From Armatimonadota bacterium (GTDB lineage: Bacteria > Armatimonadota > UBA5829 > DSUL01), in the NCBI GenBank assembly GCA_025998755.1, contig AP024674.1, forward strand, positions 682,001 to 746,000: a stretch of DNA of 64,000 bases, written 5' to 3'. Positions 4,076 through 23,220 of the stretch are shown here, one piece after another. The position numbers and the translations under genes were made by a program. The notes under the pieces were generated by a model. That model saw only the letters and a program-made list of their open reading frames with translations, searched no databases and was not told the DNA's origin. Positions within the stretch are counted from its first letter, which is position 1. Each line of letters begins with the position of its first letter.

Positions 4076-6784
4076 CTATGCCTTGATGAGCTGCCGCAGG
4101 ACATATTGCAGAATGCCGCCGTTGCGGTAGTAATCTGCCTCGCGCGGAGTGTCAATCCTTATGGTGACCTGGAACTCTATTGTCCGGCCGTCTTCGGCGC
4201 GAGCGGTGACCCGTGCCGTCCGGCCTGAGGCGAAGCCGGTGGCGATCGCCTCCGCGATACCCTGGATGTCGAACACTTCAGTTCCAGTCAGACCCAGCGT
4301 GTCGGCGTTTGTGCCCGGTGCAAACTGCAGCGGAACGATTCCCATCCCCACCAGGTTGGAACGATGGATGCGCTCAAAGCTTTCCGCGATGACCGCCTTC
4401 ACTCCCTGCAGGAACGGTCCTTTGGCAGCCCAGTCGCGGCTGGACCCGGACCCATACTCCTTCCCGGCAAGCACGATCAGCGGAATCCCCGCTTCCGAAT
4501 ACCGGACCGCCGCATCAAAGATGGTCATAACCTCGCCTGAAGGGATATGAGTGGTGAAACCACCCTCCGTGCCGGGTGCCAGTCTGTTGCGGATGCGCAC
4601 GTTTGCGAATGTGCCACGCACCATCACTTCGTGGTTACCCCGCCGCGAGCCATAGGAATTGAACTCGGCCTGGGGAACGCCTCGCTCCAGCAGGTATTTT
4701 CCAGCGGGCGAGTCCGGTTTGATGCTGCCGGCCGGACTGATATGGTCCGTCGTGATGCTGTCTCCCAGGAACGCCAGAACCCGCGCCCCCCGGATGTCCT
4801 CCACGCTTTGCGGTTCGTCCGGCCGCATGCCGTCGAAATAGGGCGGGCGGCGGATATAGGTGGACGACTCGTCCCAGGCGAAGCGGTCTCCGGCAGGCAC
4901 TTCGATGGAGTTCCAGTTCTCGTCTCCCTTGAAGACTGCGGAGTAGGTCTCTTCGAACAGCTCGCGCGTCACGCACTGCTGGATGACCCGGTTGATCTCC
5001 TCCTGCGATGGCCAGATGTCCCGCAAATAGACCGGCTGGCCCTCCCTGTCCGTGCCGAGCGGTTCGGCTGCCAGATCTATGTCTATACGCCCGGCCAGGG
5101 CGAAAGCCACCACCAGCGGAGGGCTCATCAGGTAGTTGGCCCGCACTTCCGGATTGATGCGGCCCTCGAAATTCCGGTTGCCGGACAGGACGGATGCGGT
5201 CACCAGTCCGCCTTCCGCGATGGCCCGGGAAATCGCTTCCGGAAGTGGGCCAGAGTTGCCGATGCAGGTGGTGCAGCCATACCCCACCGTGTTGAAGCCG
5301 ATCTCGTCCAGATAGCGCGAAAGGCCGGCCGCTTCCAGATAGCGCGTCACCACCCTGGAGCCCGGTGCTAGCGACGTCTTGACCCAGGGCTTCGAGCGAA
5401 GCCCGCGTTCAACGGCATTCCTGGCAAGGAGCCCCGCCGCGATCATCACGGACGGGTTGGAAGTATTCGTGCAGCTGGTAATCGCAGCGATGACCACGCT
5501 TCCGTGTGTTAACTCGAACTCCTGCCCATCCAGCCGGGCGCGGACGGCCGAAGCGGCGCCTGCGCCGGAGGCTGAAGGCCCCAGAAGCGAGGGCAGCGCC
5601 TCTCGGAAGGAATCCGCAGTTTTTGAGAGCGGCACGCGGTCTTGCGGGCGCCTGGGCCCAGCCACACTGGGCTCCACCGAGGACAGGTCCAGCTCCAGGA
5701 CGTCGCTGTAGACGGCCTCCGGTGCTTCCGGGCTGTGGAAAAGTCCCTGCTCCTTGAAGTATGCCTCCACCAGCTGGATGTGTTCCTCGGACCGACCCGA
5801 GTGGCGCAGATAGCGCAAGGTCTCGGCATCCACGGGGAAGATGGCACAGGTGGCGCCGTATTCCGGGCACATGTTGGAGATCGTCGCCCGGTCTGCAAGG
5901 GGCAGCGTGGCCAGTCCCGGGCCGAAGAACTCCACAAATTTCCCGACCACCCCCTTCTGCCGGAGGATCTGTGTGACCGTTAGCACCAGATCTGTCGCCG
6001 TCGCACCTTCCGTCAAAGCGCCCGTGAGACGGAAGCCCACCACGGAGGGGATCAGCATACTGACGGGCTGGCCCAGCATGGCCGCCTCGGCTTCGATGCC
6101 GCCCACGCCCCATCCCAGCACTCCGAGACCGTTGATCATCGTGGTGTGAGAATCCGTGCCCACCAGCGTGTCGGGGTAGGCCGACAGCGAGCCGTCGTCA
6201 GCCTCCGCCGTGAATACCACCCGCGCCAGATACTCCAGATTCACCTGATGGACAATGCCGGTGCTGGGAGGTACAGCGCGGAAGTTGCGGAAGGCACTTT
6301 GCCCCCATTTCAGGAAGGAGTAGCGCTCCCGGTTTCGCTGGAACTCGCGCTCCACATTGATGAGCAGGGCATCGGGGCGACCGAATGCGTCCACCTGCAC
6401 CGAGTGGTCTATGACCAGCTCCACGGGCTGAAGCGGGTTGATTCGGGACGGATCTCCCCCCAGCTCAGCCATTGCGTCCCGCATTGCGGCCAGATCCACC
6501 ACGCAGGGCACTCCCGTGAAGTCCTGCAGCAACACCCTGGCCGGTGTAAATGCGATCTCGCGCTCGGGGATCGCCTGCGGATCCCAGCCTGCGAGGGCGG
6601 CAATGTCCTCCGCCGTTACGGAGATCCCGTCCTCGGTTCGCAGCAGGTTCTCCAGCAGAATGCGCAGACTGTAGGGCAGCCGCTCCAGAGAATAACCGGC
6701 ATCCTGCAGGGCCGTGAGTCTATGAATGACGTATTTCCGGCCGCCGGCGGTCAATGTGCCCCGGGCGGAGTACGAGTCGGTCAC
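4076..6784 (-). CDS. acnA: aconitate hydratase (AcnA/IRP type)
   Basis: A 902-residue aconitase that isomerises citrate to isocitrate in the TCA cycle, in the cytoplasm. The 4Fe-4S ligands are visible in [13 protein letters not shown] (about residue 440) and [14 protein letters not shown] (about 505-510). The swivel domain carries the substrate motif [11 protein letters not shown] near the C-terminus. The length and N-terminus ([18 protein letters not shown]) are those of AcnA rather than AcnB. The frame extends to 6802, but the AAGGAGG there is the ribosome site for GTG 6784, eight bases further on, so I use that start. It is transcribed divergently from secDF, from a promoter at 6853-6882. 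AcnA-type proteins can bind RNA when the cluster is lost. Confidence 0.95.
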
Positions 6785-7004: not shown

Positions 7005-9449
7005 TTGTCGCGTTACCGTCAGTTATTCTTCTTCATCCTTGTGCTTTGCGCCGTATCCGCCTGGATCGTGGCCACGAAGGAGATGCGCCGCGGTCTGGAC
7101 CTGGCGGGCGGGATGCGGGTGGTCTATGAAGCAAGACCCGGACCGGGGCAGGAGTTCAACAACCAGACTCTGCAGACCGTCGCCCGTATCCTGGAGCGGC
7201 GCGTGAACGCATCCGGTGTGGTCGAGCCGGTGGTCCAGCCCAAGCCTCCACGGCAGGTCATCGTCGAGATCCCGGATGTCAAAAACAAGGAAGAGCTGGC
7301 AACGCGGCTGAGCCGCCCCACCAAGCTGGAGTTCCGCTATTTCAAGAACATCCAGAGCGACCGCAATCCCGGCGCTCCCATCAGGATGCAGGTGGACCGG
7401 GAGAACGGCAACGAGAAGATCGTTTTCTACGACCCGGAAGGCAAGGAGGTGCCGCATAGCAAGATCCTTGCGGACTCCGAGCTCATCCTCACCGGTGCGG
7501 ATCTGAAGGACAATGCCCGCGGGGATATCTCCGGCATGCGCTCCGTGGTGCGCATCGAGTTCAAGCCCGAGGGCAAAGAGAAGTTCGCCGAGTTCACCCG
7601 CCGCCACGTGGGGGACTATCTGGCCATCGTCCTGAATGACCAGATTCTGAGTGTTCCGGTCATCAACGAGGCCATCCTGGGCGGAAAGGCCGAGATCTCC
7701 GGAAACTTCACGCCGGAAGAAGCCCAGAACCTGGCGAACGACCTGAACGCAGGCGCGCTGCCGGTCCCTCTGGAGATCGTGGAGCAGAACATCGTGGAGG
7801 CGTCCCTGGGAGCTCAGTATGTCTCCCAGAGTGTGAAGGCGGGCATCTATGGCCTGGTGCTGGTCGTGATCTTCATGATCGGCTATTACTGGCTGCCTGG
7901 CGTCATAGCCACCATCGCGCTGGCGATGTATGCCCTGTTCACGTTCGCCATCCTCAAGTGGATGGGCGTCACCATGACCCTGCCGGGCCTTGCGGGTTTC
8001 ATCCTGTCGGTAGGTATGGCGGTGGACGCCAACATTCTCATCTTCGAGAGGATGAAGGAGGAGCTTCGGGCCGGCAAAACGCTGCACTCCGCCATTGACG
8101 CTGGCTTTAACCGGGCCTGGACAGCGATTCTGGACTCCAATGTCTGCACCATCATCACCTGTCTGGTGCTGATTGCCCTGACCAGCGGGCCGGTGGTCGG
8201 CTTTGCCAAGACCCTGGCCATCGGTGTTCTGGTCAGCATGTTCACGGCCATCACGGTCAGCCGCACCCTGCTGCATCTGGTCACCTCGTTCGGCTTCGCC
8301 CAGAATGCCCGCCTTTACGGCCTGGGCCGCCAGTGGATGCAGCCCGTCGGGGGCAGGGGCTTCGACATCATCGGCCGGCGTGCCATCTGGTTCTCCATTA
8401 GCGGCGTGATCATCGCCACCGGGCTGGTTCTGCTCTTCATGCCGGGAGGAGGCCTGAAGAAGGGTATCGAGTTCACGGGCGGCAATATGATCCAGGTGTC
8501 CCTGCCTGCCGGTGTCACCGCCCCTCAGGTGCGAAGCGCGCTGGCGGAGTTCTCACCGCGGGTGCAGCTCTCGCCGGAGGCCGGCACCAACCGGACCACC
8601 GCCTACATCCGCACCAAGGAGCTGAAGCCCGCGGAACTGGACCGGTTGAGGGAGATCGTGACGTCGCGCTTCAAGGGAGCCGAGGTCGTCAGCACCAGCA
8701 AGGTTGGGGCCAGCATCTCAAGGGAGATCACCGAAAAGGCCATCCTTGCCGTGGTCCTTGCCTGTGTCGCCATCTGTATCTACCTGTCAGTCCGGTTCGC
8801 CCAGCATGGCTTCGTGGAGGGCTTCAAATATGGAGCCTGCGCGCTTGCGGCGCTGGTGCATGACGTGCTGGTGGTGCTGGGAGCTTCCGCGCTGTTCGGC
8901 AAGCTCTTCGGATGGGAGATTGATGGCGCATACGTCACCGCCGTGCTGACAATGGTCGGCTACAGCGTGCACGATACAATCGTGGTTTTCGACCGGGTGC
9001 GCGAGAACCAGAAGAACCGCCTGAAGGGCGAGACCTTCGAGCAGATGGTCAACCGCAGCATCCTGCAGACCTTCGCGCGGTCCATCAACACGTCGTTGAC
9101 GGTGGTCCTGGTGCTGGTCACCCTGCTTTTGTTCGGCGGGTCTGTTCTGCACCACTTCACTTCGGTGCTGCTTGTGGGAATCGTCATCGGGACATACTCC
9201 TCCATCTTCAACGCCAGCCCGCTCCTGGTTCTCTGGGAGCGGCAGGCGCGTAAGGCTAAGGGGCAGTTGACCCCGGCTGAGATGAAGCCGCTGGTGGAGA
9301 GGCCGTCTCGCGAGGCGCTGGAGACGGTTGGGGCCTCGTCCGACGGCGACCGGGACGAGGAAGCCGTTGAGGCTCGTCCGGTGGCCGGAGGGGCTTCAAA
9401 GACCAAGCCTCGCACCCAGCAGGCGAAACGGCGCAAGCGCCGGTTCTAG
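7005..9449 (+). CDS. secDF: protein translocase subunit SecDF (fused SecD-SecF)
   Basis: An 814-residue fusion of the two accessory subunits of the Sec translocon, which use the proton motive force to complete export. The SecD half has an N-terminal membrane helix, a large periplasmic domain (about 30-260, starting RRGLDLAGGMRVVYEA) and six helices. Its conserved helix carries GMAVDANILIFERMKEEL (about residue 340). The SecF half starts near residue 450 (FDIIGRRAIWF) and has KKGIEFTGGNMIQV and the matching YSVHDTIVVFDRVREN helix. The start is TTG 7005, preceded by GAGGAGG. Fused SecDF occurs in several phyla, while enterobacteria have separate genes. The Lys/Arg-rich end is probably cytoplasmic. 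YajC is not in the window. Confidence 0.95.
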   Translation: MSRYRQLFFFILVLCAVSAWIVATKEMRRGLDLAGGMRVVYEARPGPGQEFNNQTLQTVARILERRVNASGVVEPVVQPKPPRQVIVEIPDVKNKEELATRLSRPTKLEFRYFKNIQSDRNPGAPIRMQVDRENGNEKIVFYDPEGKEVPHSKILADSELILTGADLKDNARGDISGMRSVVRIEFKPEGKEKFAEFTRRHVGDYLAIVLNDQILSVPVINEAILGGKAEISGNFTPEEAQNLANDLNAGALPVPLEIVEQNIVEASLGAQYVSQSVKAGIYGLVLVVIFMIGYYWLPGVIATIALAMYALFTFAILKWMGVTMTLPGLAGFILSVGMAVDANILIFERMKEELRAGKTLHSAIDAGFNRAWTAILDSNVCTIITCLVLIALTSGPVVGFAKTLAIGVLVSMFTAITVSRTLLHLVTSFGFAQNARLYGLGRQWMQPVGGRGFDIIGRRAIWFSISGVIIATGLVLLFMPGGGLKKGIEFTGGNMIQVSLPAGVTAPQVRSALAEFSPRVQLSPEAGTNRTTAYIRTKELKPAELDRLREIVTSRFKGAEVVSTSKVGASISREITEKAILAVVLACVAICIYLSVRFAQHGFVEGFKYGACALAALVHDVLVVLGASALFGKLFGWEIDGAYVTAVLTMVGYSVHDTIVVFDRVRENQKNRLKGETFEQMVNRSILQTFARSINTSLTVVLVLVTLLLFGGSVLHHFTSVLLVGIVIGTYSSIFNASPLLVLWERQARKAKGQLTPAEMKPLVERPSREALETVGASSDGDRDEEAVEARPVAGGASKTKPRTQQAKRRKRRF

Positions 9450-9458
9450 CTCATATCC

Positions 9459-9481
9459 CTGCGGCTATACGGCAGCCGCAG
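9459..9481 (+). terminator. small hairpin after secDF, possible weak terminator
   Basis: An 8-bp perfect stem, CTGCGGCT and AGCCGCAG with a 7-base loop, begins ten bases after the secDF stop. The following sequence GGGCGAATCTTGG has no U-tract, so intrinsic termination is doubtful. Confidence 0.35.
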
Positions 9482-9494
9482 CGGGCGAATCTTG

Positions 9495-9533
9495 GCGGCC
9501 TGCAGTTTTCCATAGGGGAGGACTGCAGGCCGC
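9495..9533. repeat. 12-bp perfect inverted repeat in the secDF-recJ gap
   Basis: GCGGCCTGCAGT (9495-9506) and its exact complement (9522-9533) flank the 15-base loop TTTCCATAGGGGAGG. It lies 54 bp before recJ. It may be a factor-assisted terminator, an mRNA-processing site or a protein-binding palindrome. No T-run follows it. Confidence 0.5.
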
Positions 9534-9587
9534 TGGCATTGAAAGAGGAATCAGTAATAGAAGGAGTCATTCGCGCTGTTTCCAGGG

Positions 9588-11312
9588 ATGGACGATAAGC
9601 CGGGACGGATGGAGAGGGTCTGGACGCTGATGGAGCCCCCGCTGGATGCAGGGGAAGGGCTCTCGCGGGGACTGGGTCTGCATCCTGTCACGGCTCTGCT
9701 CCTCGCCAGGCGGGGCATAAAGACCGTCTCCGCCGCGACCGATTTCTTGAATCCGTCCACCGCCTACGTTCCCGATCCATTTCTGCTTCCCGACGCTGAA
9801 AAAGCCGTTGATCGCCTGATCCGCGCTATAGACTCGGGCGAAAGCATCCTCGTGCACGGGGACTACGACGTGGATGGAGTGACAAGCGCTGCCCTCCTGA
9901 CGCGCGTGCTGGGCAGACTGGGGGCCAGGGTGCGGCCCTTTGTGCCCTCGCGCGCGCGCGACGGCTACGGTGTCAGCCTGACCGCCCTGGAGCAGGCTGC
10001 TGCCGAGGGCGTGAGCCTCATACTCACAGCTGACTGCGGTATCACTGCCTTCGAGGCCTGCACACGCGCGCGGCAGCTGGGACTGGATGTGGTGGTCTCG
10101 GACCACCACGAGCCCGCCGATACACTGCCGGATGCGCTCGCGGTGGTGAATCCTCTGGTTGCAGGGAGCTCCTATCCGTTCCGTGGGCTGGCCGGGGTGG
10201 GGGTGGCCTACAAACTCTGTCAGGCGTTGTGTCTGAGACGGGGAGTGGATCTGGAGGCGCTGCACCGGCACTTCCTGGACCTGGTGGCTCTCGGCACGGT
10301 CAGCGATTGTGTCCCGCTTCTGGATGAGAACCGTGCCTATGTCTACCACGGTCTGCGCTCGATGGGAACTTCCCAGAAGGAGGGTATCCGCGCTCTCCTG
10401 AAGCTTTCCGGTCTGGGCGAAAGCCTGGGCGCCGAGGATATAGGCTTCCGGTTGGGGCCACGGATCAATGCGGCCGGGCGCCTGGCCGAAGCGGATGAGG
10501 CGCTGGAACTGCTGCTCACCCGGGATTCGGTTCGTGCGGAGGAGCTGGCAGCCATACTGACCGAGCGCAACTTGCAGAGGCAGCAGGAACAGCGTCGCAT
10601 ACAGGCCGAAGCCATCCAGGCGATTTTCGAAACGGGCATAAGCGAAGACCCTGTGCTGGTGGTCGGGAAAGAGGGCTGGCATCCTGGCGTGATCGGTATC
10701 GTAGCCGGAAAGCTGGTGGAGACCTTCTACCGCCCGGCCGTGGTGCTCACGCTCCGGGACGGACATTGGCACGGGTCAGCGCGAGGAATCCCCGGTTTCC
10801 ACTGGGCGAGAGCGCTGGAGGAGCTGGGAGAAGATCTGGTCCGCGGAGGTGGGCACGCAATGGCTGCGGGCTTGTCTTTGCCCCGGGAACGCCTAAGCGA
10901 GTTCCGCGTTGCAGTCAATGAGCTGGCGCAGCAGTGGCTCAGTCCCGCCGATCTTCAGCCGCGGCTGGATGTGGAGGCCGAGGTGCCCGTGGAGCAGTTG
11001 TCTCTGCAACTGGCTCAGGAGGTTTCCCAGCTTGCTCCGTTCGGTGAGGGCAACCCCGAGCCAGTTCTGATGTCCTCCGGGGTGCGACTGGACAATGTCC
11101 GTTGTGTGGGGGAGGGTGGCAGGCACCTGCGGGCTGATCTGCGCGGATCTCCCGCTCCTGTCAGCGTGGTGGGGTTCGGGATGGGAGATGGCGTTTCCAG
11201 CCTTTCAGGGGACCGCGTGTTCAAAATCTGTTACAATCTTAGAGTAAACAAGTATAACGGTTCCGGCTGTCCTGAAATCGTTCTCAGGGACCTTCCGGCG
11301 GTGCAAGAATGA
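9588..11312 (+). CDS. recJ: single-stranded-DNA-specific exonuclease RecJ
   Basis: A 574-residue 5'-3' single-strand exonuclease of the DHH superfamily, acting in recombination and mismatch repair with Mn or Mg. Visible motifs are HGDYDVDGVTSAALL (about residues 87-101, motif I), TADCGI (motif II), VVSDHHEP (the DHH motif, about 168) and the DHHA1 signature GGGHAMAAG (about 422). The C-terminal OB-like domain contains APFGEGNPEP. Length is typical for RecJ. The ATG 9588 start has only a weak ribosome site; ATG 9609 is a possible alternative. Its stop overlaps the relA start by 4 bases (ATGA), indicating coupled translation. Confidence 0.93.
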   Translation: MDDKPGRMERVWTLMEPPLDAGEGLSRGLGLHPVTALLLARRGIKTVSAATDFLNPSTAYVPDPFLLPDAEKAVDRLIRAIDSGESILVHGDYDVDGVTSAALLTRVLGRLGARVRPFVPSRARDGYGVSLTALEQAAAEGVSLILTADCGITAFEACTRARQLGLDVVVSDHHEPADTLPDALAVVNPLVAGSSYPFRGLAGVGVAYKLCQALCLRRGVDLEALHRHFLDLVALGTVSDCVPLLDENRAYVYHGLRSMGTSQKEGIRALLKLSGLGESLGAEDIGFRLGPRINAAGRLAEADEALELLLTRDSVRAEELAAILTERNLQRQQEQRRIQAEAIQAIFETGISEDPVLVVGKEGWHPGVIGIVAGKLVETFYRPAVVLTLRDGHWHGSARGIPGFHWARALEELGEDLVRGGGHAMAAGLSLPRERLSEFRVAVNELAQQWLSPADLQPRLDVEAEVPVEQLSLQLAQEVSQLAPFGEGNPEPVLMSSGVRLDNVRCVGEGGRHLRADLRGSPAPVSVVGFGMGDGVSSLSGDRVFKICYNLRVNKYNGSGCPEIVLRDLPAVQE

Positions 11313-13576: not shown

Positions 13577-14043
13577 GGGCGGTCGTCCAGCGCGTGGCGG
13601 ACGCGCACGTGGATGTTGATGACCGGCGGGTGGCCAATATCGGAGTGGGCCTACTGGTCCTGCTGGGCGTCGCGCGGGGCGACCGCGGCCGTGACGCGGC
13701 CTGGATGGCGGACCGGGTTGCGGGCCTGCGCATCTTTCCGGACGAGCAGGGCAAGATGAACCTCTCCGTCAGAGACGTCGGCGGGGAAGTCCTGGCTGTC
13801 TCGCAGTTTACCCTTCTGGCGGATGCCCGGCGCGGACGAAGGCCGGGCTTTTCCGATGCTGCCCCGCCGGAGGAGGCCAGAGTCCTTTTTGACGAGTTTG
13901 TGCTGCGCCTTCGCGAGTCAGGAATATCTGTGTCCACGGGCGAGTTTCAGGCGCATATGCGGGTGGGGCTGACAAACGATGGTCCGGTGACCATAATCCT
14001 TGATAGCAGAGACGTCAGGGACGGAAAGACTCCAGCAGAATGA
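13573..14043 (+). CDS. dtd: D-aminoacyl-tRNA deacylase
   Basis: A 156-residue Dtd enzyme that hydrolyses D-aminoacyl-tRNAs (and glycyl-tRNA-Ala) so D-residues are not built into protein. It starts with the typical [15 protein letters not shown] and has the two active-site motifs [17 protein letters not shown] (about 77-93) and [10 protein letters not shown] (about 135-144). The GTG start overlaps the relA stop (GTGA), and its own stop overlaps the next gene (ATGA). No neighbouring ribosome site is needed if translation is coupled. Confidence 0.93.
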
Positions 14044-14894
14044 GTTCGCCGCGCAAGGAACAGCAGCAGCAAAGGGGGCGTTGTCCGGGAACAGGTCCGG
14101 GGCGGGCGCGGAGCACGGCCGACGAAAGCCAGTTCGCCGGCGACTGCCACCTCGCGGCCGGCGAACTGGACGCAGCCATCCGCGACTACCGCAAAGCCGT
14201 GGGGCAGGATCAGTCCAACCCGGACCGTCGGACACGCCTTGGGGACGCTTACTGTCTCGCGGGAGAATCCACCAAGGCCTTGTCGCAGTATAAAGAAGCG
14301 ATCCGTGCCAATCCCCGGAAGGCGGAGCCCCATTACAGTCTGGCGGAGCTCTACCGCAGCTACGGCAAATGGCAGGCGGCGGTGGTGGAGTACCGCAGGG
14401 CTGTCGAATACGACGCAAAGAATCCTTTGTACCGCTTCAAGCTGGGCAAGGCGCTCTGGGAGTGCGGACTGAAGCAGGCGGCCATCGCTGAGACGGAAAA
14501 GGCGGTGGAACTGGCCCGCACGGACAGTTTCTATCATTTCGGCCTGGCAGAGTTTTACAGCCGGGTGGGGCGGCTGGAGGAGGCCATCACTCATTTCCAG
14601 CACGCTACCATCTATGCCCCCGACGACCCCTACTACGCAATGCGGCTGGGAGCACTGCTTCTGCGCTGCGGCCGCACCCACGAAGCGATCGACGTGCTGA
14701 GCACGGCCGTCCGCCTGAAAAGGGATGATCCCGCCTATCACTGTCTGCTGGCCGATGCCTACCTGCGGGAGGGAATGGAGGCTGAGGCGGTCATACACTA
14801 CAGGCGGGCCGGGGTTCTGGACGACTACGACGCGGTCAATCTGAGCATGTTCCGCCGGATGGTGGATGAAGAGTATTCGCGGACCCCGCGCTGA
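14040..14894 (+). CDS. tetratricopeptide-repeat protein
   Basis: A 284-residue soluble protein made almost entirely of TPR units. At least six 34-residue repeats run from about residue 32 to 270, with recurring [48 protein letters not shown] and [15 protein letters not shown]. The first 30 residues are a low-complexity, Gln/Arg-rich leader without a signal peptide. TPRs are protein-binding scaffolds, so a specific role cannot be assigned. ATG 14040 overlaps the dtd stop by 4 bases, and the CsgG-like gene follows, which suggests this scaffold works with it or is simply co-transcribed. Confidence 0.85.
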
Positions 14895-14919
14895 ATCCTT
14901 GCAGGGAGGGAAGTCAGTC

Positions 14920-15861
14920 ATGGGGATCAGAGTGTTTGCGTGGGCAGTCTCCCTTTTGATGCTCCTTGTTGCCGGAGGTTCGCCGGTGCAGGGCATGAAG
15001 CGGATCGCCGTCGTGCCGTTCGAGGCCACGGCGGAGTTTCGCGGTACTCCCCTCAGCCGCGGGCTAACGGATATGATCATCTCCGAACTGGTGAAGCTGG
15101 GCGGGGTGCAGGTCATTGAGCGCGCCCAGCTGGACCGCTTGATGGATGAGCACCGGCTCCGGGCGGATGGCATTCTGGACCCGGAGAACGCGGCGAGAGC
15201 GGGCAGGGTGCTTGGGGTGGACTATCTCCTTGGCGGGAGAGTCACGGAATTCGGTGTGAAGGAGAACCGCACGCTTCTGGGTGGAGTGGCGGAGGCGGTG
15301 GCAGGGGCCCGATACAAGCAGTCCACGGCTCGCGTGGCTCTGGACGTGCGGCTGGTGGATGCCTCTACGGGTCGGATCCTCCTCGCTCGCAGCGTGCAGG
15401 CTGAGGACCGTTCTGCTTCTGTGGGCATCGCGGGTGGCCGTTTGCGTGACCTGGTTCTGATCGGGAACTTCCAGACCACGGAGTGGGCCGAAAGCCGCAT
15501 CGGGCGCGCCACCCGTAAAGCCGTGACTGAAGTCGTTTCGTCTCTGGCCCCGTATTTCCCACCCGTGGGTCGGGTGTCCGCGGTTTACGAGCGCGACGGG
15601 ACGCGCTTTGCTATCCTGGATCTCGGCGCGTTCGCCGGGCTGGCTCCCGGCAAGGAACTGAGGATCTACCGTGAGACTGTGGTCCGGGATAGCGAGGGGC
15701 GGGAAGTATGGCGTGAGTCCCGGGACGTCGGCAGGGTGCGGGTGGAGGATGTCCGGAACGAAAGCGCTCGCGCCGTAATCGTGACAGAGGATCCAGCTGT
15801 GGAGGAGGGGGATCTGTTCACCTGGGAGCGAGCCGCCTCCCCGGTTGCGGAAAGGAAATAG
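14920..15861 (+). CDS. CsgG-family / curli-assembly-like secreted protein
   Basis: A 313-residue exported protein. The frame opens at 14866, but GGGAGGGAAG directly before ATG 14920 and the signal peptide (residues 1-25, ending PVQG) fix the start. The CsgG-like domain (about 27-200) has KRIAVVPFEATAEFRGTPLSRG, VQVIERAQLDRLMDEHR and LGVDYLLGGRVTEFG. The C-terminal part (about 210-300) is a beta-rich domain with VGRVSAVYERDG. There is no lipobox cysteine, unlike true CsgG, so a soluble periplasmic role is likely. Members of this family take part in outer-membrane secretion or stress responses, and the precise function here is unknown. Confidence 0.78.
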   Translation: MGIRVFAWAVSLLMLLVAGGSPVQGMKRIAVVPFEATAEFRGTPLSRGLTDMIISELVKLGGVQVIERAQLDRLMDEHRLRADGILDPENAARAGRVLGVDYLLGGRVTEFGVKENRTLLGGVAEAVAGARYKQSTARVALDVRLVDASTGRILLARSVQAEDRSASVGIAGGRLRDLVLIGNFQTTEWAESRIGRATRKAVTEVVSSLAPYFPPVGRVSAVYERDGTRFAILDLGAFAGLAPGKELRIYRETVVRDSEGREVWRESRDVGRVRVEDVRNESARAVIVTEDPAVEEGDLFTWERAASPVAERK

Positions 15862-16079
15862 CTTGCAGTATCCGATAATACGGGTGCCGGCCGCGCTTGT
15901 CTGGCAGCTGGGGTCGGCCGGTCGAGTCCGGCGGAGAGGGATGAGAGTCGCCCAACTCATTCCTTTCCGCCGTCGTTGTCTTTGCGTGCCGGTTGCCTGC
16001 AACCTCTCCTGAGCAAGGAAGTCGCGGCGGCGGGGTCGAACCTCTTCGCTGGAACCATTCTCCGGAGGTGCCGGACAAA

Positions 16080-16553
16080 ATGCCGGATATGCTGGTGCGG
16101 TTGTACAGGCTTCCTCCTCTCCAGGAAGCGATGGAGCGGATGGAGCGGGAAGGGATCGTCCTGCGGCGGGCGCAGCCCTATGAGAAGAGGGTTGTGACCG
16201 GCTTCATCGAACGCCATTTTTCTGCCGCGTGGGCGGATGAGACTTCAGTCGCGTTCGCGCGTCAGCCGGTCACGGCGTTCATCGCCCTTGCAGAGAACCG
16301 CATCGTGGGTTTCGGCGCCTATGAGTGCACCCGGCGGGGCTATTTCGGGCCCACAGGAGTCGCGGAGGACTTCCGGGGGAGGGGAATTGGCTACGCCCTG
16401 CTTCTGGCCTGCCTTTACGGAATGTGGGAAATGGGCTACGCCTATGCCATCATCGGGGGCGCGGGGCCTGTGGATTTCTACCGCCGGGCCGTGAACGCCG
16501 AGGTCATTGAAGACAGCGTGCCCGGCATTTACACCCGCATACCGGAGGGATAG
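16080..16553 (+). CDS. GNAT-family N-acetyltransferase
   Basis: A 157-residue acetyltransferase. The acetyl-CoA pyrophosphate loop is GVAEDFRGRGIGYALLLA (about 98-115), and the second half has a WEMGYAYAIIGGAG strand typical of motif B. The substrate is unknown. The ATG 16080 start is chosen because GGAGG (16064-16068) lies 11 bases upstream; ATG 16089 is also possible. The gene stands alone, between the CsgG-like gene and the exopolysaccharide locus. The 218 bp before it hold only a weak 7-bp inverted repeat. Confidence 0.8.
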   Translation: MPDMLVRLYRLPPLQEAMERMEREGIVLRRAQPYEKRVVTGFIERHFSAAWADETSVAFARQPVTAFIALAENRIVGFGAYECTRRGYFGPTGVAEDFRGRGIGYALLLACLYGMWEMGYAYAIIGGAGPVDFYRRAVNAEVIEDSVPGIYTRIPEG

Positions 16554-16605: not shown

Positions 16606-16635
16606 GTGAGTGGTACGCTCCGTGCGTGGTATACT
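16606..16635 (+). promoter_or_regulatory. weak candidate promoter before the exopolysaccharide locus
   Basis: TATACT at 16630-16635 is a good -10 box (5 of 6). The best -35 match, GTGAGT at 16606-16611, reaches only 3 of 6, with an 18-bp spacer. It would give a leader of about 160 nt to ATG 16804. Confidence 0.28.
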
Positions 16636-16803: not shown

Positions 16804-17736
16804 ATGCTCGTCGAACCGGTGTTCAACCGCATAGTTCTGGTGCTTTGCGTCCTCGGCGCTATGGGCCTGATATCGCCGCCCGTCAGCGCCGGGGCCGTCT
16901 CTCCTCCTGCGGATTCCCTCCTCTCAAAGCCTGCCATTCACGCCCCTGAACCAACCGCTGCTGCGCTATCCGGCGTCGGTCTGGCAGGACTGGGTGGTTT
17001 CGGGTTCGTCTTTGGGCGCTGGCGGTCCCGCAGGAGGTTCCTGCAACACCTGGCCGCCCAGGGCGCGGGGTCAGGTGGGCTCGTCGTTGTCACCCCGGCG
17101 GGGGTCAGCTTTGTTCACTGGCTGAACGACGCTCTATATGTTTTCTTCAAACGTGCGCTGGACATCGTTCTGTCCCTTTGCGCCTTGGTGGTTCTGACGC
17201 CGCTCTTCACGATCATCGCCATCGCCATCTATGTGGATTCTCCCGGTCCCATCTTCTATCGCCAGGAGCGCCTTGGGCTGGGGCGGCGTCCATTCCGGCT
17301 GATCAAGTTCCGCTCCATGTGCGTGAACGCAGATGAAGTCTTGAAGCGGAACGAAGCGTTGCGAAAAGAGTTCGAAGAGCTCTACAAGCTGAAGCACGAT
17401 CCCCGCGTCACGCGCGTGGGAGCGTTTCTCCGCAAGACCAGCCTGGACGAGCTCCCTCAGTTCCTCAATGTGCTGATGGGAGACATTTCTCTTGTGGGGC
17501 CGAGGCCCATCGTGGAACGGGAGGTGGAGAAGTACTGGCCTTTCGAGGATCGTCTGTTCAGCGTCAAGCCCGGCGTCACTGGTCTGTGGCAGGTTAGCGG
17601 GCGCAGTGACACCAGCTACGAGGAGCGGGTGCGCCTGGACATGCGGTATGTAGCGGAGCGCTCTCTCTGGCTGGATCTGAAGATCATGGCCGCCACAATC
17701 CCGGCGCTTGTGGGGCGCGGTACCGGCGCATACTGA
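16804..17736 (+). CDS. polyprenyl-phosphate sugar-1-phosphate transferase with an N-terminal PEP-CTERM-like segment
   Basis: A 310-residue monotopic phosphoglycosyl transferase that starts the repeat unit by moving a sugar phosphate from a nucleotide sugar to undecaprenyl phosphate. The catalytic domain (about 115-310) has FKRALDIVLSL, the DSPGPIFYRQER and KFRSM motifs, the KTSLDELPQ Asp-Glu dyad, ISLVGPRP and VKPGVTGLWQVSGR. The usual four-helix N-terminus is absent. In its place are a signal-like helix (1-28), a short Pro-rich linker, APEP (47-50), a Gly/Ala/Leu helix (about 52-70) and GRWRSRRR (71-78). That order of PEP, helix and arginine cluster is the PEP-CTERM sorting-signal pattern. 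ATG 16804 is the likely start although the frame opens at 16606. The exosortase is the next gene. Confidence 0.85.
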   Translation: MLVEPVFNRIVLVLCVLGAMGLISPPVSAGAVSPPADSLLSKPAIHAPEPTAAALSGVGLAGLGGFGFVFGRWRSRRRFLQHLAAQGAGSGGLVVVTPAGVSFVHWLNDALYVFFKRALDIVLSLCALVVLTPLFTIIAIAIYVDSPGPIFYRQERLGLGRRPFRLIKFRSMCVNADEVLKRNEALRKEFEELYKLKHDPRVTRVGAFLRKTSLDELPQFLNVLMGDISLVGPRPIVEREVEKYWPFEDRLFSVKPGVTGLWQVSGRSDTSYEERVRLDMRYVAERSLWLDLKIMAATIPALVGRGTGAY

Positions 17737-18065
17737 GGGGCCGGGTCTTTGAACTCCGGCAGCAGCTTCTCCTTCACGGTTCTTTCTCTGTAGGTTTCCC
17801 GTCCCACCAGTTGAGGCACAGGGGCGGGGGAACTTCTTCCTGTTGATTGGAGGTATACCCGCTGGCACGCGCGAAAATCTGGGCGACGGTCGGCAAGCTT
17901 GTTGTCGCGGAGGGATGCCGCGTTCCGTTCCATCCGGATAAGACAATGATCTTGCGGACCGGGGGCGCGAATGTGGCAGGATGGGGATGACGCTCCGGCG
18001 GCGGAGAGAGGGAGAGGGATCGTCCCTCCGTATCATTTGAGGTATTGAGCGGAAAGAGGTTGCTG
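17737..18065 (+). other. 329-bp non-coding region upstream of the exosortase
   Basis: No gene of convincing length is seen on either strand. It contains a small inverted repeat, GCGAC...GTCGC, around the GGTCGGCAAGCTTGTT segment, and a purine-rich GGCGGAGAGAGGGAGAGGGA stretch just before the exosortase. I see no match to a riboswitch class I can name, and no clear promoter. The length for this compact genome suggests a leader or an independent promoter. Confidence 0.4.
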
Positions 18066-18947
18066 TTGGCTTCAGGCGTAGCTACCACCCCGGACCGGGC
18101 CGGACAGCGCAGCGCGGCTCCGGTCTTGGAATACGGGATTATTCTGGCGGTCCTTGCCGCGCTCTACTACTCCACCTTTGTCTGGCTGGTGGAAGCGTGG
18201 ATGGTGCCGGACTCGAACTATTCCCACGGGTTCTGGGTGCCGCTTGTGATCGCGTATTTCCTGTGGGAGAAGCGAGCTTCTCTTGCGGCGGTCCCGAAGA
18301 GAGGTTCGCAGCGGGGTCTGCGCTGGATAGCGCTGGCGCTGGGGATGCATCTGGCCGGGCTGATCCTGGACGTGCACTTCCTATCCGGCGTCTCATTGTT
18401 GCCGATGGTCTGGGGTCTTGCCCTCTGGTACTTCGGGCCGCACGTCCAGAGCCTGATCTTCTGGCCTTCGATGTTCCTGCTCTTTATGATTCCGCTGCCG
18501 TTCGTCTCCACCTGGCTCACCATACGGTTGCAGCTCATCTCTGCGATCGCGGCCACCGGCATTCTTCAGCCGTTTTTCTACGAGGTCAGCCGGGTGGGGA
18601 CAATGGTTGCGCTCCCCAGCTTCACGCTCTTTGTGGAAGCTCCCTGCAGCGGCCTGAACACGTTGTTCAGCCTTATCTTCGTGGGCAGCGTGGTGGCATA
18701 TCTGGCCAAGGGAGTATGGTGGCGAAAGCTGATCTTGCTGATGACGGCTCCGCTCATCGCGGTTGTGGCGAACATCTTCCGTATTATCCTGATCGCGCTG
18801 CTGGGCGAATTCTACGGGGAAGAGGTCGCCATGGGGGTGTTTCACAAGGGATCCGGCGTGATTATGTACTCCATCGGTCTTGTGCTGTTCCTGCTGGAGG
18901 CGTGGCTGCTTCGCATCCGGCTGGCGCCGGGAGAGGAGAGGGCGTGA
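18066..18947 (+). CDS. exosortase (EpsH/XrtA-like transpeptidase)
   Basis: A polytopic membrane cysteine protease of about 293 residues, with some eight hydrophobic helices. The three exosortase catalytic residues are visible: Cys194 in VEAPCSGLN, Arg239 in ANIFRII and His260 in FHKGSG. Exosortases cleave PEP-CTERM tails and hand proteins to a cell-envelope or exopolysaccharide acceptor. The frame is open from TTG 18045, but GGAAAGAGG lies six bases before TTG 18066, so I prefer that start. The EpsI gene follows 1 bp later. The only PEP-CTERM-like sequence I recognise in the window is in the sugar transferase upstream. Confidence 0.92.
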   Translation: MASGVATTPDRAGQRSAAPVLEYGIILAVLAALYYSTFVWLVEAWMVPDSNYSHGFWVPLVIAYFLWEKRASLAAVPKRGSQRGLRWIALALGMHLAGLILDVHFLSGVSLLPMVWGLALWYFGPHVQSLIFWPSMFLLFMIPLPFVSTWLTIRLQLISAIAATGILQPFFYEVSRVGTMVALPSFTLFVEAPCSGLNTLFSLIFVGSVVAYLAKGVWWRKLILLMTAPLIAVVANIFRIILIALLGEFYGEEVAMGVFHKGSGVIMYSIGLVLFLLEAWLLRIRLAPGEERA

Positions 18948-18948
18948 G

Positions 18949-19731
18949 ATGAGCTTCATCAGGAAACATGGTGTTGTTCTGGGTGGGGCCTTCTTCGTGC
19001 TGGCCGCCAGCTGGTTGTTCGTGCAGCCGGAGCCGAAGCTGCAGAACAAGTTGGATCTGAGCGTCATCCCGATGGAGTACGCCGGATACTACGGGCGCGA
19101 CATAGACATTACGGACGTGCCTATCGAGGAGCAGCTTGCCCCGCAGGCCATTCTCTTTCGGGACTATGAGAAGGGAGGCGACAGGCCCATTACTCTGTGC
19201 CTGGTCTATAACTACGCCCGTCGGTCCCGCAGCTTTCATGACCCGCACGTCTGCTATCCGGCTCAGGGGTTCAAGCTCCGGCAGTTGCCGTCCCGGGTGA
19301 TCAACGTCGGCGGGATGGATGTCACCGCGCACGTCATGGTCGCGGAGAAGAATCACCAGGAGTCCATGATCGTCTACTGGTATATGTCTGGAGACAAACC
19401 GCTGGAGGAACGGGGCGGCCGGGAAGGGTTTCTGAAAACGGCGGTGCTGAGCCGATTGCGCCGAGATCTGGGCGTCTCCAATATGGTGCGAGTCTCCACC
19501 CCCATCCTCTACGGGGAGGAGACGGCCTTTGAGCAGCTTCACTCTTTTCTGAAAGCCTATTTCCCGCACATCCGCAAGGTTCGGGCAGATGTTGCCCAGG
19601 ATCCGATGCCGGCGCGGCGGCTATGGGCGAGCGGCCCTGCGGGCAAGGCGGGCGTGATGTTGCTTCTGGTGTTGCCGCTGGCTCTGGTGGCAGTTTCCCT
19701 GGCTCGACCGGACGAGTCAGGTTCCGACTAG
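18949..19731 (+). CDS. EpsI-family exosortase-associated protein
   Basis: A 260-residue protein with an N-terminal membrane anchor (about 8-26, VVLGGAFFVLAASWLFV) and a C-terminal helix (about 233-252). The extracytoplasmic domain has the family signature FHDPHVCYPAQGF (about 99-111) and a later IVYWYMSGD. EpsI proteins, found fused to or beside exosortases, are part of the sorting and polysaccharide system, though the reaction is not defined. ATG 18949 lies 1 bp after the exosortase stop, and GGAG is in the exosortase end. The 170 bp after it have no gene. Confidence 0.88.
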   Translation: MSFIRKHGVVLGGAFFVLAASWLFVQPEPKLQNKLDLSVIPMEYAGYYGRDIDITDVPIEEQLAPQAILFRDYEKGGDRPITLCLVYNYARRSRSFHDPHVCYPAQGFKLRQLPSRVINVGGMDVTAHVMVAEKNHQESMIVYWYMSGDKPLEERGGREGFLKTAVLSRLRRDLGVSNMVRVSTPILYGEETAFEQLHSFLKAYFPHIRKVRADVAQDPMPARRLWASGPAGKAGVMLLLVLPLALVAVSLARPDESGSD

Positions 19732-19901: not shown

Positions 19902-21041
19902 GTGTTCGCCTGTCTCAAGCTCCCTGTAATCATCACTGTTGTTGTGGCCGTCACGCTGGCGGCCGGCCTCGCACCGGTGGGTGCGGCGCCCCCGCTGAAG
20001 CCCGGAGACACCGTCGCGCTGGTTGTCAAGGGCGAGGAGGATATTAGCCGCTTCTACATTCTGGACGACGAAGGACGGATGGACTTCGGAGAGATGGGGC
20101 AGCTGAAGGTCGCCGGTCTCTCCGTGGAGCAGGCCAGGCAGGCGGTCATCACTTTCCTGAGCCGCTACATCCGTCAGCCGGAAGTACAGTTCACACTCGC
20201 TAAGCCCAAGGGATCCCGGATCACTATCACGGGAGACGTCAAAAGCCCCGGCACGGTGGAAGCGGTCACCGACGTGAGTATCCGGGACATTCTGGCGTTC
20301 GCGGGAGGGGCGCTGCCGACGGCGGACCTGTCACAGGTCACGCTGGTGCGGGGAGGCGAGTTCACCCGGGTGAATCTCAGCGAGCTTATGGCCAGCCCGG
20401 ATCCCAGCAAAGACATCATCCTGCAGGACGGAGATCAGGTCAACGTCCCTTCGCGGGTCATTGGTGAGTTCACTTTCCTCGGAGCGGTCAAGTCGGTGGG
20501 CACCTATCCTCTCCTGCGTGGCACCAAGGTACTGGACGCGCTGAAAATGGCCGGAGGAGTGGAGGAGGGCGCCCGGGTGGAGACCATCCGCGTGGTTCGG
20601 CCGGGTCAGGACGAGGTCACCGTCAACCTGACCGCTCTCCTTGCGGGACGTGTCGAGGAGAACGTGGTCATTCTGCCCGGGGATACACTGGTGGCTTCCT
20701 CCGACCAGATGGCCCCGACTTCCTACAGCATCATCGGCGGGGTCTACAGGCCGGGCCGCTACGAGCTGAAGCAGAAACTTACCTGGACGGAGGCGCTGGC
20801 TACCGCCGGAGGCTTCAACCCGAACGCCCGCCAGGACAAGGTGGTGCTCATCCGCAAACAGGCGGATGGAAAATATCAGTCCATCCCGCTGGACTTCAGC
20901 AAGATTCTGGGTGGATCAGAGGACCCGGAACTCTTCGTGCAGGACGGGGACGTGCTGAACGTGCCCGAGAAAACCCCACGGCAGCGCAGTCCTATTCTGG
21001 ATTGGCTCCCCATCGTTGGGCCGCTGCTCTACATTCTGTAG
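19902..21041 (+). CDS. polysaccharide export protein (Wza/SLBB type)
   Basis: A 379-residue exported protein with a signal peptide (1-28, ending PVGAAP) and no lipobox. A poly-export domain (about 32-100: PGDTVALVVKGEED, GRMDFGEMGQLKVAGLS) is followed by three SLBB-like repeats (about 105-175, 192-265, 275-355), each starting like ITGDVKSPGTV, FLGAVKSVGTYPL and IIGGVYRPGRYEL. Such proteins form the outer-membrane or periplasmic channel for capsule and exopolysaccharide. GTG 19902 has GGAGGGT upstream. It precedes the tyrosine-kinase chain-length regulator, the usual partner. Confidence 0.9.
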   Translation: MFACLKLPVIITVVVAVTLAAGLAPVGAAPPLKPGDTVALVVKGEEDISRFYILDDEGRMDFGEMGQLKVAGLSVEQARQAVITFLSRYIRQPEVQFTLAKPKGSRITITGDVKSPGTVEAVTDVSIRDILAFAGGALPTADLSQVTLVRGGEFTRVNLSELMASPDPSKDIILQDGDQVNVPSRVIGEFTFLGAVKSVGTYPLLRGTKVLDALKMAGGVEEGARVETIRVVRPGQDEVTVNLTALLAGRVEENVVILPGDTLVASSDQMAPTSYSIIGGVYRPGRYELKQKLTWTEALATAGGFNPNARQDKVVLIRKQADGKYQSIPLDFSKILGGSEDPELFVQDGDVLNVPEKTPRQRSPILDWLPIVGPLLYIL

Positions 21042-21063: not shown

Positions 21064-23220
21064 ATGGACTACGCACAGTACATCGCCGCCGTCAGACGCC
21101 GCTGGCCGGTTATGCTGGCCAGCATTGTGGTGATCTGCGGGGCGGTCATTGTCCATCATTTCTTGACCCCCCGCTTCTCACAGTATAAGGCGACGGCGCG
21201 GATACTGATGAGCCCCACCAGTCAGATCGCCGGGGATGACCTGGCGCAGCTGGGTCTCAGCGACAGCGTCATGTTCGAGGTATTCCGTACGGTCTACAGC
21301 GATGTTCTGGCGACTGCGGATCCGGAACAGGCCCGGGAACGGTTCATCCGCTTCCGACAGGATATCCGTTGCGAAGCGGTTGGAGGCGGAGGGGGCCAGC
21401 GCAGCAACATCGTCTTGATAAGCGCGGTCGGCGATACCTCCGAGCGCGCCGTTAGGGCCGCGAATGCTCTGGCCGAGAAAGTTCAGCAAGCTGCCGCTGC
21501 CTCGTCGCTGGATCTCTACCGCACGCAGAAGGGGAGCACCTCCGATGCTTTGGAGGAGGCCAGACGCAATCTGGAGGCGCGCCTGAAGGAGCTGCGGGAC
21601 TTCAAGGAGGCCAACAAGGATCGTATCCTCCCTCTGGATTTCAGCCAGGCGCAGGCTCAGGTGAATATGCTGACGCGGGACGTGGAGGATGCGCAGTCAT
21701 CCGTGCAGGAATATCAGCGCCGGGCCCGCGCGTTGCGGGAGACTCTGGGACGACGCTCCCAGCCTCGGAGCTTTGACGTGGATGTCGTTCCTTCAAGCGC
21801 AGTCATAGACCGTCTTCAGGCACAGCTTGCCACTCAGGAAGTGGAGCTGATGAACCTGAAGATGCGCTATACGGAGGACCACCCGCGCGTCAAGGAGACC
21901 CGGCAGATGATCGAGAACACCAAGGCGCGCCTGAACGCCGAGGTGAACAAGACGTTCAAGCTGGAGAATGCCCCAGCGAGCCTGGAATACCAGTTTATCA
22001 CCGGGGACATCTCCCGGTATGAGGCCGAGAGAATGGCGGCGGAGGCCCGCCGCCGGGCACTGGAGGGCCTTCTGCGAAGAGCCAGAATGGAGCTGGCAGA
22101 TGTGCCGGCGCGTGAACTCAAACTTGCCGAACTGAACAGCAGGGTAGCGGAGGCACAGAAGCGCTACGACGCCATCGCTGAGCGGCAGTTCCAGTCCGAC
22201 TATGCCATTGCCGTGCTGGAGAAGCAGCGTCAGCTTGAGGTGCCCGTTTTTGGGTCGCTGTTCAATGCGGCCTATGCATCGGAGACGGCGGCGAGCAAGC
22301 TGGCGAAGCTGCGCTTCAAGTTGCCGATCGCGTTCCTGATCTCCATCATCGTCGGGCTCGGGATCGTCCTTTTCCTGGAGGGGCTGGATACCTCCATCCG
22401 GGATGTGGATCAGGTAGAGGATCGCTATCAGCTTCCCGTGCTCGGAGTTGTTCCAGCCTTGAAAGAGGCTTCGCTGAAGGGTGGCAGCACTCTGGTCCTT
22501 CGCGACTCTCCGGATACGCCGTTCGCGGAGTCTTACCGCATTTTGCGGGCCAACTTCCTGGCGCTTGCGCGGCAGGCGCAGGTGCGCAGTGTCATGATCA
22601 CGAGCACCTTGCCAGGTGAAGGGAAAACGACGACAGCCGCCAACTTCGCCGCATCCCTTGCCGAGGGCCATAAGCGTGTTGTGCTCATAGATGCTGATAT
22701 GCGCAATCCTTCTCTCCATCGCGCCTTCGGCGTGCGCAAGGAGCCTGGTCTTTCGAACTATCTTGCGGGTGAAGCTTCCCTGGCGGATATCCTTTTCCCC
22801 ACCAGTGTGGAGAACCTGGTGCTGATCTCCGCAGGCAGTATCCCGGACAATCCGGCCCGCCTGCTGACAGGGCCCCGGATGAAGGAGCTGCTGGAGCAGC
22901 TGGAGGCGGAGGCGGATTACGTGGTCATAGACACTCCTCCGGCCGTAGCATTCAGCGACGCGATGGAGCTGGGATCTATTGCGGATTCCATGATTGTGGT
23001 GGTGGGTGCGGGATCTCGTCTGGAGTCGGCGCACTTTCGGGCGCGCACGCAGTTGGCCAACGTTCAGGCCGTCATCGTGGGAACGGTGCTCAACCGTGTG
23101 CAGCCTGCGGACGTGGACAGCTATCGCTACTCCGCCCGCTACTATCCGAGGATGGATGGCCGGGGCAAGCTTCCCGGTCCGAAAGAGGAGCCGGCGGCTC
23201 TGCCGGACGGGAACTCCTGA
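21064..23220 (+). CDS. polysaccharide co-polymerase with BY-kinase domain (Wzc type)
   Basis: A 718-residue inner-membrane protein that regulates chain length and couples polymerisation to export by tyrosine autophosphorylation. An N-terminal Wzz helix (about 17-35) and periplasmic coiled-coil region (about 140-400) lead to a second helix (about 420-440), then the cytoplasmic kinase. The kinase has Walker A GEGKTTT (about 518-524), Walker A' VVLIDADMRNPS (about 540) and Walker B VVIDTPPA (about 620). The tail has a tyrosine cluster, YRYSARYYPRMD, the expected autophosphorylation site. The exporter gene precedes it by 22 bp. Confidence 0.92.
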   Translation: MDYAQYIAAVRRRWPVMLASIVVICGAVIVHHFLTPRFSQYKATARILMSPTSQIAGDDLAQLGLSDSVMFEVFRTVYSDVLATADPEQARERFIRFRQDIRCEAVGGGGGQRSNIVLISAVGDTSERAVRAANALAEKVQQAAAASSLDLYRTQKGSTSDALEEARRNLEARLKELRDFKEANKDRILPLDFSQAQAQVNMLTRDVEDAQSSVQEYQRRARALRETLGRRSQPRSFDVDVVPSSAVIDRLQAQLATQEVELMNLKMRYTEDHPRVKETRQMIENTKARLNAEVNKTFKLENAPASLEYQFITGDISRYEAERMAAEARRRALEGLLRRARMELADVPARELKLAELNSRVAEAQKRYDAIAERQFQSDYAIAVLEKQRQLEVPVFGSLFNAAYASETAASKLAKLRFKLPIAFLISIIVGLGIVLFLEGLDTSIRDVDQVEDRYQLPVLGVVPALKEASLKGGSTLVLRDSPDTPFAESYRILRANFLALARQAQVRSVMITSTLPGEGKTTTAANFAASLAEGHKRVVLIDADMRNPSLHRAFGVRKEPGLSNYLAGEASLADILFPTSVENLVLISAGSIPDNPARLLTGPRMKELLEQLEAEADYVVIDTPPAVAFSDAMELGSIADSMIVVVGAGSRLESAHFRARTQLANVQAVIVGTVLNRVQPADVDSYRYSARYYPRMDGRGKLPGPKEEPAALPDGNS

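Follow-up and report, generated by a model that had tools for sequence, protein, structure and literature searches.

How does a segment with the appearance of a PEP-CTERM sorting signal come to lie at the front of a phosphoglycosyl transferase (PGT), and could an exosortase recognize it there? PEP-CTERM signals are C-terminal virtually without exception, and the rare internal cases are suspected to be non-functional (Haft et al. 2006, PMC1569441). The locus lies in a 64,000-nucleotide stretch of DNA (the window), positions 682001–746000 of a single 3.29 Mb contig.

The PEP-PGT gene and its locus

The initial annotation described an APEP motif, a Gly/Ala/Leu helix, and an arginine cluster at residues 47–78 of the PGT, which is what the translation reads. 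We refer to the enzyme as PEP-PGT; its parts are as follows.

16804–17736, plus strand: PEP-PGT, a small (monotopic-type) PGT with an N-terminal exosortase-type module, 310 residues (PF02397 search; G002 orthologue)
16804–16890, plus strand: signal-peptide-like helix, residues 1–29, ending in VSA (sequence; hydrophobic peak)
16942–16953, plus strand: APEP, residues 47–50; P48-E49 invariant in 12 of 12 members
16954–17016, plus strand: hydrophobic Gly/Ala/Leu helix, residues 51–71 (sequence, profile, hydrophobicity)
17017–17037, plus strand: basic cluster RWRSRRR, residues 72–78; R77-R78 invariant
17149–17709, plus strand: PF02397 catalytic domain, residues 116–302 (230 bits against a cut-off of 27)

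Positions 16804–17037 translate as MLVEPVFNRIVLVLCVLGAMGLISPPVSAGAVSPPADSLLSKPAIHAPEPTAAALSGVGLAGLGGFGFVFGRWRSRRR. The frame is free of stops from the module into a complete PF02397 domain, in agreement with the annotated placement of the segment after a signal-like helix and before the whole catalytic domain. The catalytic Asp-Glu pair, D215-E216 within TSLDELPQ, is invariant among members. About 230 residues follow the PEP-like segment, which thus lies far from the extreme C terminus. A possible signal peptidase I site precedes Gly30, and inspection by eye finds AXA-like helix ends in the relatives too (VSA/AQ, TQA/SE, AYA/DT, and AFA/DK). The gene has an alternative longer start, a GTG at 16606, upstream of the one used here. 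Its orthologue in genome G002, from the same GTDB family, is 58–61% identical over nearly the full length.

Downstream of PEP-PGT lie an exosortase gene and genes for polysaccharide export.

18045–18947, plus strand: exosortase (PF09721, 182 bits; TIGR02602 above cut-off), with Cys201, Arg246, and His267 in the expected motifs
18880–19731, plus strand: EpsI-family exosortase-associated protein (DUF3485/TIGR02914)
19902–21041, plus strand: Wza-type polysaccharide export protein (EpsE-like)
21064–23220, plus strand: Wzc-type chain-length determinant with tyrosine autokinase

The exosortase starts 309 bases past the PEP-PGT stop on the same strand, so the PGT is indeed next to an exosortase gene, as had been noted. 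The catalytic cysteine that had been named Cys194 is present, but it is Cys201 when counted from the start at 18045; the number 194 corresponds to a start seven codons later. Upstream of PEP-PGT, at 14040–16553, are genes for a TPR protein and an acetyltransferase, in the same order as in G002 (L125). The exosortase adjoins PEP-PGT in both genomes, and the G002 order reads TPR, acetyltransferase, PEP-PGT, exosortase, EpsI, Wza.

The segment scores close to true PEP-CTERM tails

When PEP-CTERM HMMs were run, as the initial annotation had advised, the window segment stayed below threshold, with no PF07589 match and nothing above any NCBIfam PEP-CTERM cut-off; the G002 orthologue reached 12.3 bits on PF07589 against a cut-off of 20.7. 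Taken at face value, this outcome counts against the sorting-signal reading, for which the initial annotation had named a sub-threshold score as a refutation. In our judgement, the window segment falls short because those models were trained on C-terminal tails. Gapless profiles built from class-specific true tails were therefore used. One of these, 16 columns wide, was drawn from 44 genuine C-terminal tails of the class; on it the window segment scores 21.6 bits and the G002 segment 21.1, compared with 22.9–46.9 for the true tails themselves (leave-one-out) and 11.0 for the best unrelated non-C-terminal site in 1,616 ORFs (556,000 residues). Judged by these scores, the window segment is no chance resemblance and behaves like a weak true tail. 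The order of its elements is that of a PEP-CTERM signal, as originally described, but the spacing is not: the distance from the Glu to the basic cluster is 22 residues, compared with 15–20 in true tails and 17–18 in the other PEP-PGTs checked.

Pro-Glu-Pro is nearly invariant in PEP-CTERM signals. The window and G002 have it as APEP, whereas the other ten members, which belong to two further GTDB families (f2 and f3), keep only P-E; their segments score low, 4–10 bits, on the canonical tail profile. A reciprocal profile, gapless and 25 columns wide, was built from these ten segments alone and run, with their own proteins removed, over 912,577 residues, a set enriched in PEP-CTERM loci yet including thousands of further ORFs, many membrane helices among them. 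The best 28 distinct matches are all PEP-CTERM-type tails, nearly all of them reaching a stop codon 25–28 residues after the match start, and an unrelated sequence first appears at rank 29. Among the matches are true tails without the second Pro (VPEVPT, VPEAST, VPETSA, and VPEIPA). As real tails of this kind occur in these genomes, the PGT variant is within the range of real signals. An HMM of the segments alone (A2) likewise retrieved, below the 12 PGTs, known PEP-CTERM proteins.

The window genome (G000) has 47 PF07589 matches at E values up to 10. Of the 30 among these that were re-read, 29 end 23–29 residues past the match start, and the exception (L303) is spurious; those parsed among the 20 best are likewise C-terminal.

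Distribution of the architecture

PEP-PGT is present in 12 of the 28 genomes of the class examined, which fall into three GTDB families. A profile of the 12 full-length proteins (A1) was run over the 28 genomes; 12 matches cover the N-terminal module and all other PGT matches start after it, with a score gap that is partly by construction, A1 containing the 12 PEP-PGTs. Four residues are invariant across the 12: P48, E49, R77, and R78 (window numbering). The ten f2 and f3 members read VPE[A/V/T]-x-A-x-VLAP-x-G-[I/L]-A-A-... RRRR, with the catalytic domain only about 15 residues further on, and, except in G006, their predicted mature outer stub would be about 6–15 residues long. Outside the class, no PEP-PGT was seen among 291 genomes of the phylum; a peptide-pattern scan of genome contigs returned PGT-domain matches only, its window-derived patterns being unable to reach other PEP-PGTs.

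Within the gene, an N-terminal membrane segment accompanies the PE motif strictly: among 46 small PGTs, it is found in 12 of 12 with PE and 0 of 34 without. Unlike the A1 score gap, this contrast does not follow from how the profile was built. The sole peak flagged among the 34 (L002) is upstream of the likely start. In the more careful of two trees, the window and G002 proteins stand apart from the other ten with non-PEP PGTs in between, forcing two changes, a split that would imply that the module was gained twice independently; a single PEP-PGT clade was nevertheless not rejected (p = 0.128) when an AU test was run on a quick tree. Among PGTs, the nearest relative of the f3 PEP-PGTs (L011/L209, in G021) is without the module, in a genome with exosortases and many PEP-CTERM-type tails, and may represent either a loss or the state before fusion.

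Each of the 12 carriers has exosortase genes (three in G000, at least one in each of the other 11) and several to dozens of PEP-CTERM tails. Retention of the segment in genomes without exosortase, which would speak against a sorting role, was looked for and not seen in any of the four exosortase-less genomes of the class, a weak result with so few genomes (hypergeometric p ~0.09, not significant; three of the four belong to a single genus). Another 12 genomes of the class have exosortase and no PEP-PGT. In G011, G019, G014, and G015, the immediate neighbors of PEP-PGT include no exosortase and no recognized PEP-CTERM gene. Exosortase genes lie on the PEP-PGT contig about 24–26 kb away in two genomes (G005:C9 and G007:C21). 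Many genomes of the class also have a second exosortase of about 540 residues (L161–L166), the length of exosortase-EpsI fusions.

A stand-alone paralogue in G006

The PEP-PGT frame of G006 is 497 codons long, with about 190 exported-looking residues between the putative signal peptide and IPEATAMVLGPSGLAMIVALEKHRRR. This ectodomain has a stand-alone paralogue in the same genome, 75% identical, that ends VPEPGTIVAAIALLAPAGITMRRRRS-stop at the matching position. Searches of the class found further paralogues in G006, G017, G018, G020, and G022, and the six aligned paralogues end at the same place with an ordinary tail, VPEPGTIVAAIALLAPAGITMRRRRS-stop or VPEASSMLLGALGLMPVLGMSIRKWRK-stop. The fusion and a stand-alone PEP-CTERM paralogue line up residue against residue, which makes the PGT segment positionally homologous to a genuine sorting signal. 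That the fusion in G006 might be a mis-assembly was considered and set aside, as the segment and PGT are kept together in 11 other genomes and only the ectodomain is peculiar to G006. The proposed kinship of the segment with exosortase signals thus stands at the level of sequence (the invariant P-E in 12 genomes, true tails as nearest matches in both directions, and the G006 paralogue), although not by the formal models.

PEP-CTERM genes flank the G006 PEP-PGT on both sides, and the next gene downstream of PEP-PGT in five f3 genomes (G005, G007, G022, G023, and G026) encodes a PEP-CTERM-type protein.

8906–9694: downstream PEP-CTERM-type gene, f3 (L128)
8749–9549: downstream PEP-CTERM-type gene, f3 (L129)
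4320–5129: downstream PEP-CTERM-type gene, f3 (L130)
8604–9422: downstream PEP-CTERM-type gene, f3 (L133)
10387–11301: downstream PEP-CTERM-type gene, f3 (L134)

These genes encode an exported protein of about 265 residues ending VPEVPTMLLGSIGLTMIGIIRRK or VPEIPAVALGSIGLSLLACWRSRRRK, a tail of PEP-CTERM type with no second Pro. In the window genome, the third PGT (L309, G000:C1:3213000-3229000) has a minus-strand gene nearby on either side, at 5337–6248 and 8691–9596, and both of their proteins end [VI]PEPVFFQ-[MF]G-[AT]-LAG-[ML]-GGL-[GS]-LLR..R, a PEP-CTERM-like variant that PF07589 misses.

A proposed role for the module

We propose, with a probability of roughly 70%, that the N-terminal part of PEP-PGT serves as an exosortase-recognition module, internal and of PEP-CTERM type, which precedes a PGT at the cytoplasmic face and docks that PGT at the exosortase. 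Small PGTs work on the cytoplasmic face of the membrane, as established for PglC-type enzymes. A Sec signal peptide would export a short stub (in G006, the 190-residue ectodomain), a single helix would cross the inner membrane, and the Arg cluster and PGT would remain inside. With a signal peptide and an N-out helix whose arginines are inside, the P-E would sit on the external side of the inner membrane, exactly the position it has in stand-alone PEP-CTERM proteins. An AlphaFold model made with 12 sequences, with pLDDT of 25–50 across the segment, is too poor for judging this topology, which we infer, like binding and functional coupling to the exosortase, from sequence.

Because most members would export a short stub alone, the putative signal peptide seems to serve only the presentation of P-E, and we therefore regard the module as a probable docking site, and possibly a cleavage site, for exosortase. 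The neighboring exosortase would bind it as it binds surface-protein tails, holding the glycan-initiating enzyme at the sorting enzyme. Recognition of the module by exosortase is probable on the sequence evidence. Cleavage of PEP-PGT is close to an even call, with the balance tipped slightly against it; a cut at PE could remove the stub or sort the ectodomain, leaving the PGT anchored. More speculative, and in our view quite improbable, is that the exosortase cleaves at P-E and takes as acceptor the lipid-linked sugar produced by that very PGT, making one polypeptide both the sorting substrate and the start of the glycan anchor, or that the cut is a switch that activates or localizes the PGT; such cis-acceptor chemistry is itself a doubtful step.

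The module could instead be the relic of an event in which a PEP-CTERM gene joined a PGT gene, serving now as a mere membrane anchor that exosortase ignores. A fusion origin is visible in G006, and the low canonical scores of the f2 and f3 segments, without their second Pro, would fit such decay. An anchor, however, needs no P-E, and P-E is invariant while the remaining outer part varies freely. True tails nearby or elsewhere in these genomes are also without the second Pro (VPEV, VPEI, and VPEA), and therefore its loss is not a loss of recognition. We consider a disused module unlikely.

Much less probable still are two readings in which there was never a signal on the enzyme. The initial annotation allowed that an ordinary two-helix N-terminal anchor might resemble the signal by accident, and the formal PEP-CTERM models, by staying under their cut-offs, agree with this. 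The profiles disfavor it in both directions, however: in 556,000 residues, all unrelated internal segments score far below the window segment, and the top of the reciprocal profile consists of PEP-CTERM-type tails only. The hairpin is also absent from all 34 small PGTs without PE that were examined, and the G006 paralogue is not what an accidental likeness would leave. Alternatively, the N-terminal region might not be translated with the PGT, an internal start past the Arg cluster leaving the signal separate or spurious. In several members, the N terminus offers no clear ATG backed by a strong ribosome-binding site, but the junction is free of stops in 12 of 12 genomes and amino-acid conservation continues across both segment and junction, making an internal start equally improbable.

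Comparison with known systems

In the literature searched, we found no case of a cytoplasmic enzyme preceded by an internal signal of exosortase type. No paper combining exosortase with phosphoglycosyl transferase was found in the non-subscription, non-preprint literature covered, and the titles and abstracts of papers on PEP-CTERM and sugar transferases mention no such fusion. To our knowledge, the attachment partner of exosortase-processed proteins is still an open matter in the field. Linkage of these proteins to polysaccharide or another molecule is put forward as a hypothesis in a 2025 study (PMC12188702).

The PEP-PGT module shares with the PEP-CTERM signal (PF07589/TIGR02595) an outer P-E(-P), a hydrophobic helix, an Arg-rich inner end, and an exosortase-bearing genome; a signal-peptide-like helix precedes it. 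It differs in being internal, near the N terminus with most of the enzyme after it, in scoring below the cut-offs, and, in f2 and f3, in having no second Pro. With small monotopic PGTs (PglC type, PF02397), the enzyme has in common a catalytic domain with the invariant Asp-Glu and no Rossmann-like domain; the extra exported N-terminal module, present in 12 of the 46 examined and always with PE, sets it apart. The EpsB_2 (TIGR03013, of the XrtA/PEP-CTERM system) and EPS_sugtrans (TIGR03025) enzymes are, like PEP-PGT, PF02397 enzymes of exosortase/EPS loci, but they are long multi-helix PGTs that the window protein matches by its catalytic part alone (162.5 bits against the 393 needed for TIGR03013, in the C-terminal part; 287 against 296 for TIGR03025), and a PEP-like segment in them is undescribed in the literature searched. 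The window exosortase resembles XrtW, XrtA, and XrtD in its PF09721 and TIGR02602 matches and Cys-Arg-His motifs; these are its nearest models, yet it is far below their cut-offs and fits no named subtype.

An internal version of the PEP-CTERM signal conserved in 12 genomes contrasts with the suspected non-functionality of internal cases. A module of this type on a PGT hints at a physical link between the sorting of proteins and the initiation of glycan synthesis. As a natural fusion of a signal with an initiating PGT, it is genetic evidence that the two processes meet at one place, and it offers simple mutants for testing the link between sorting and glycan.
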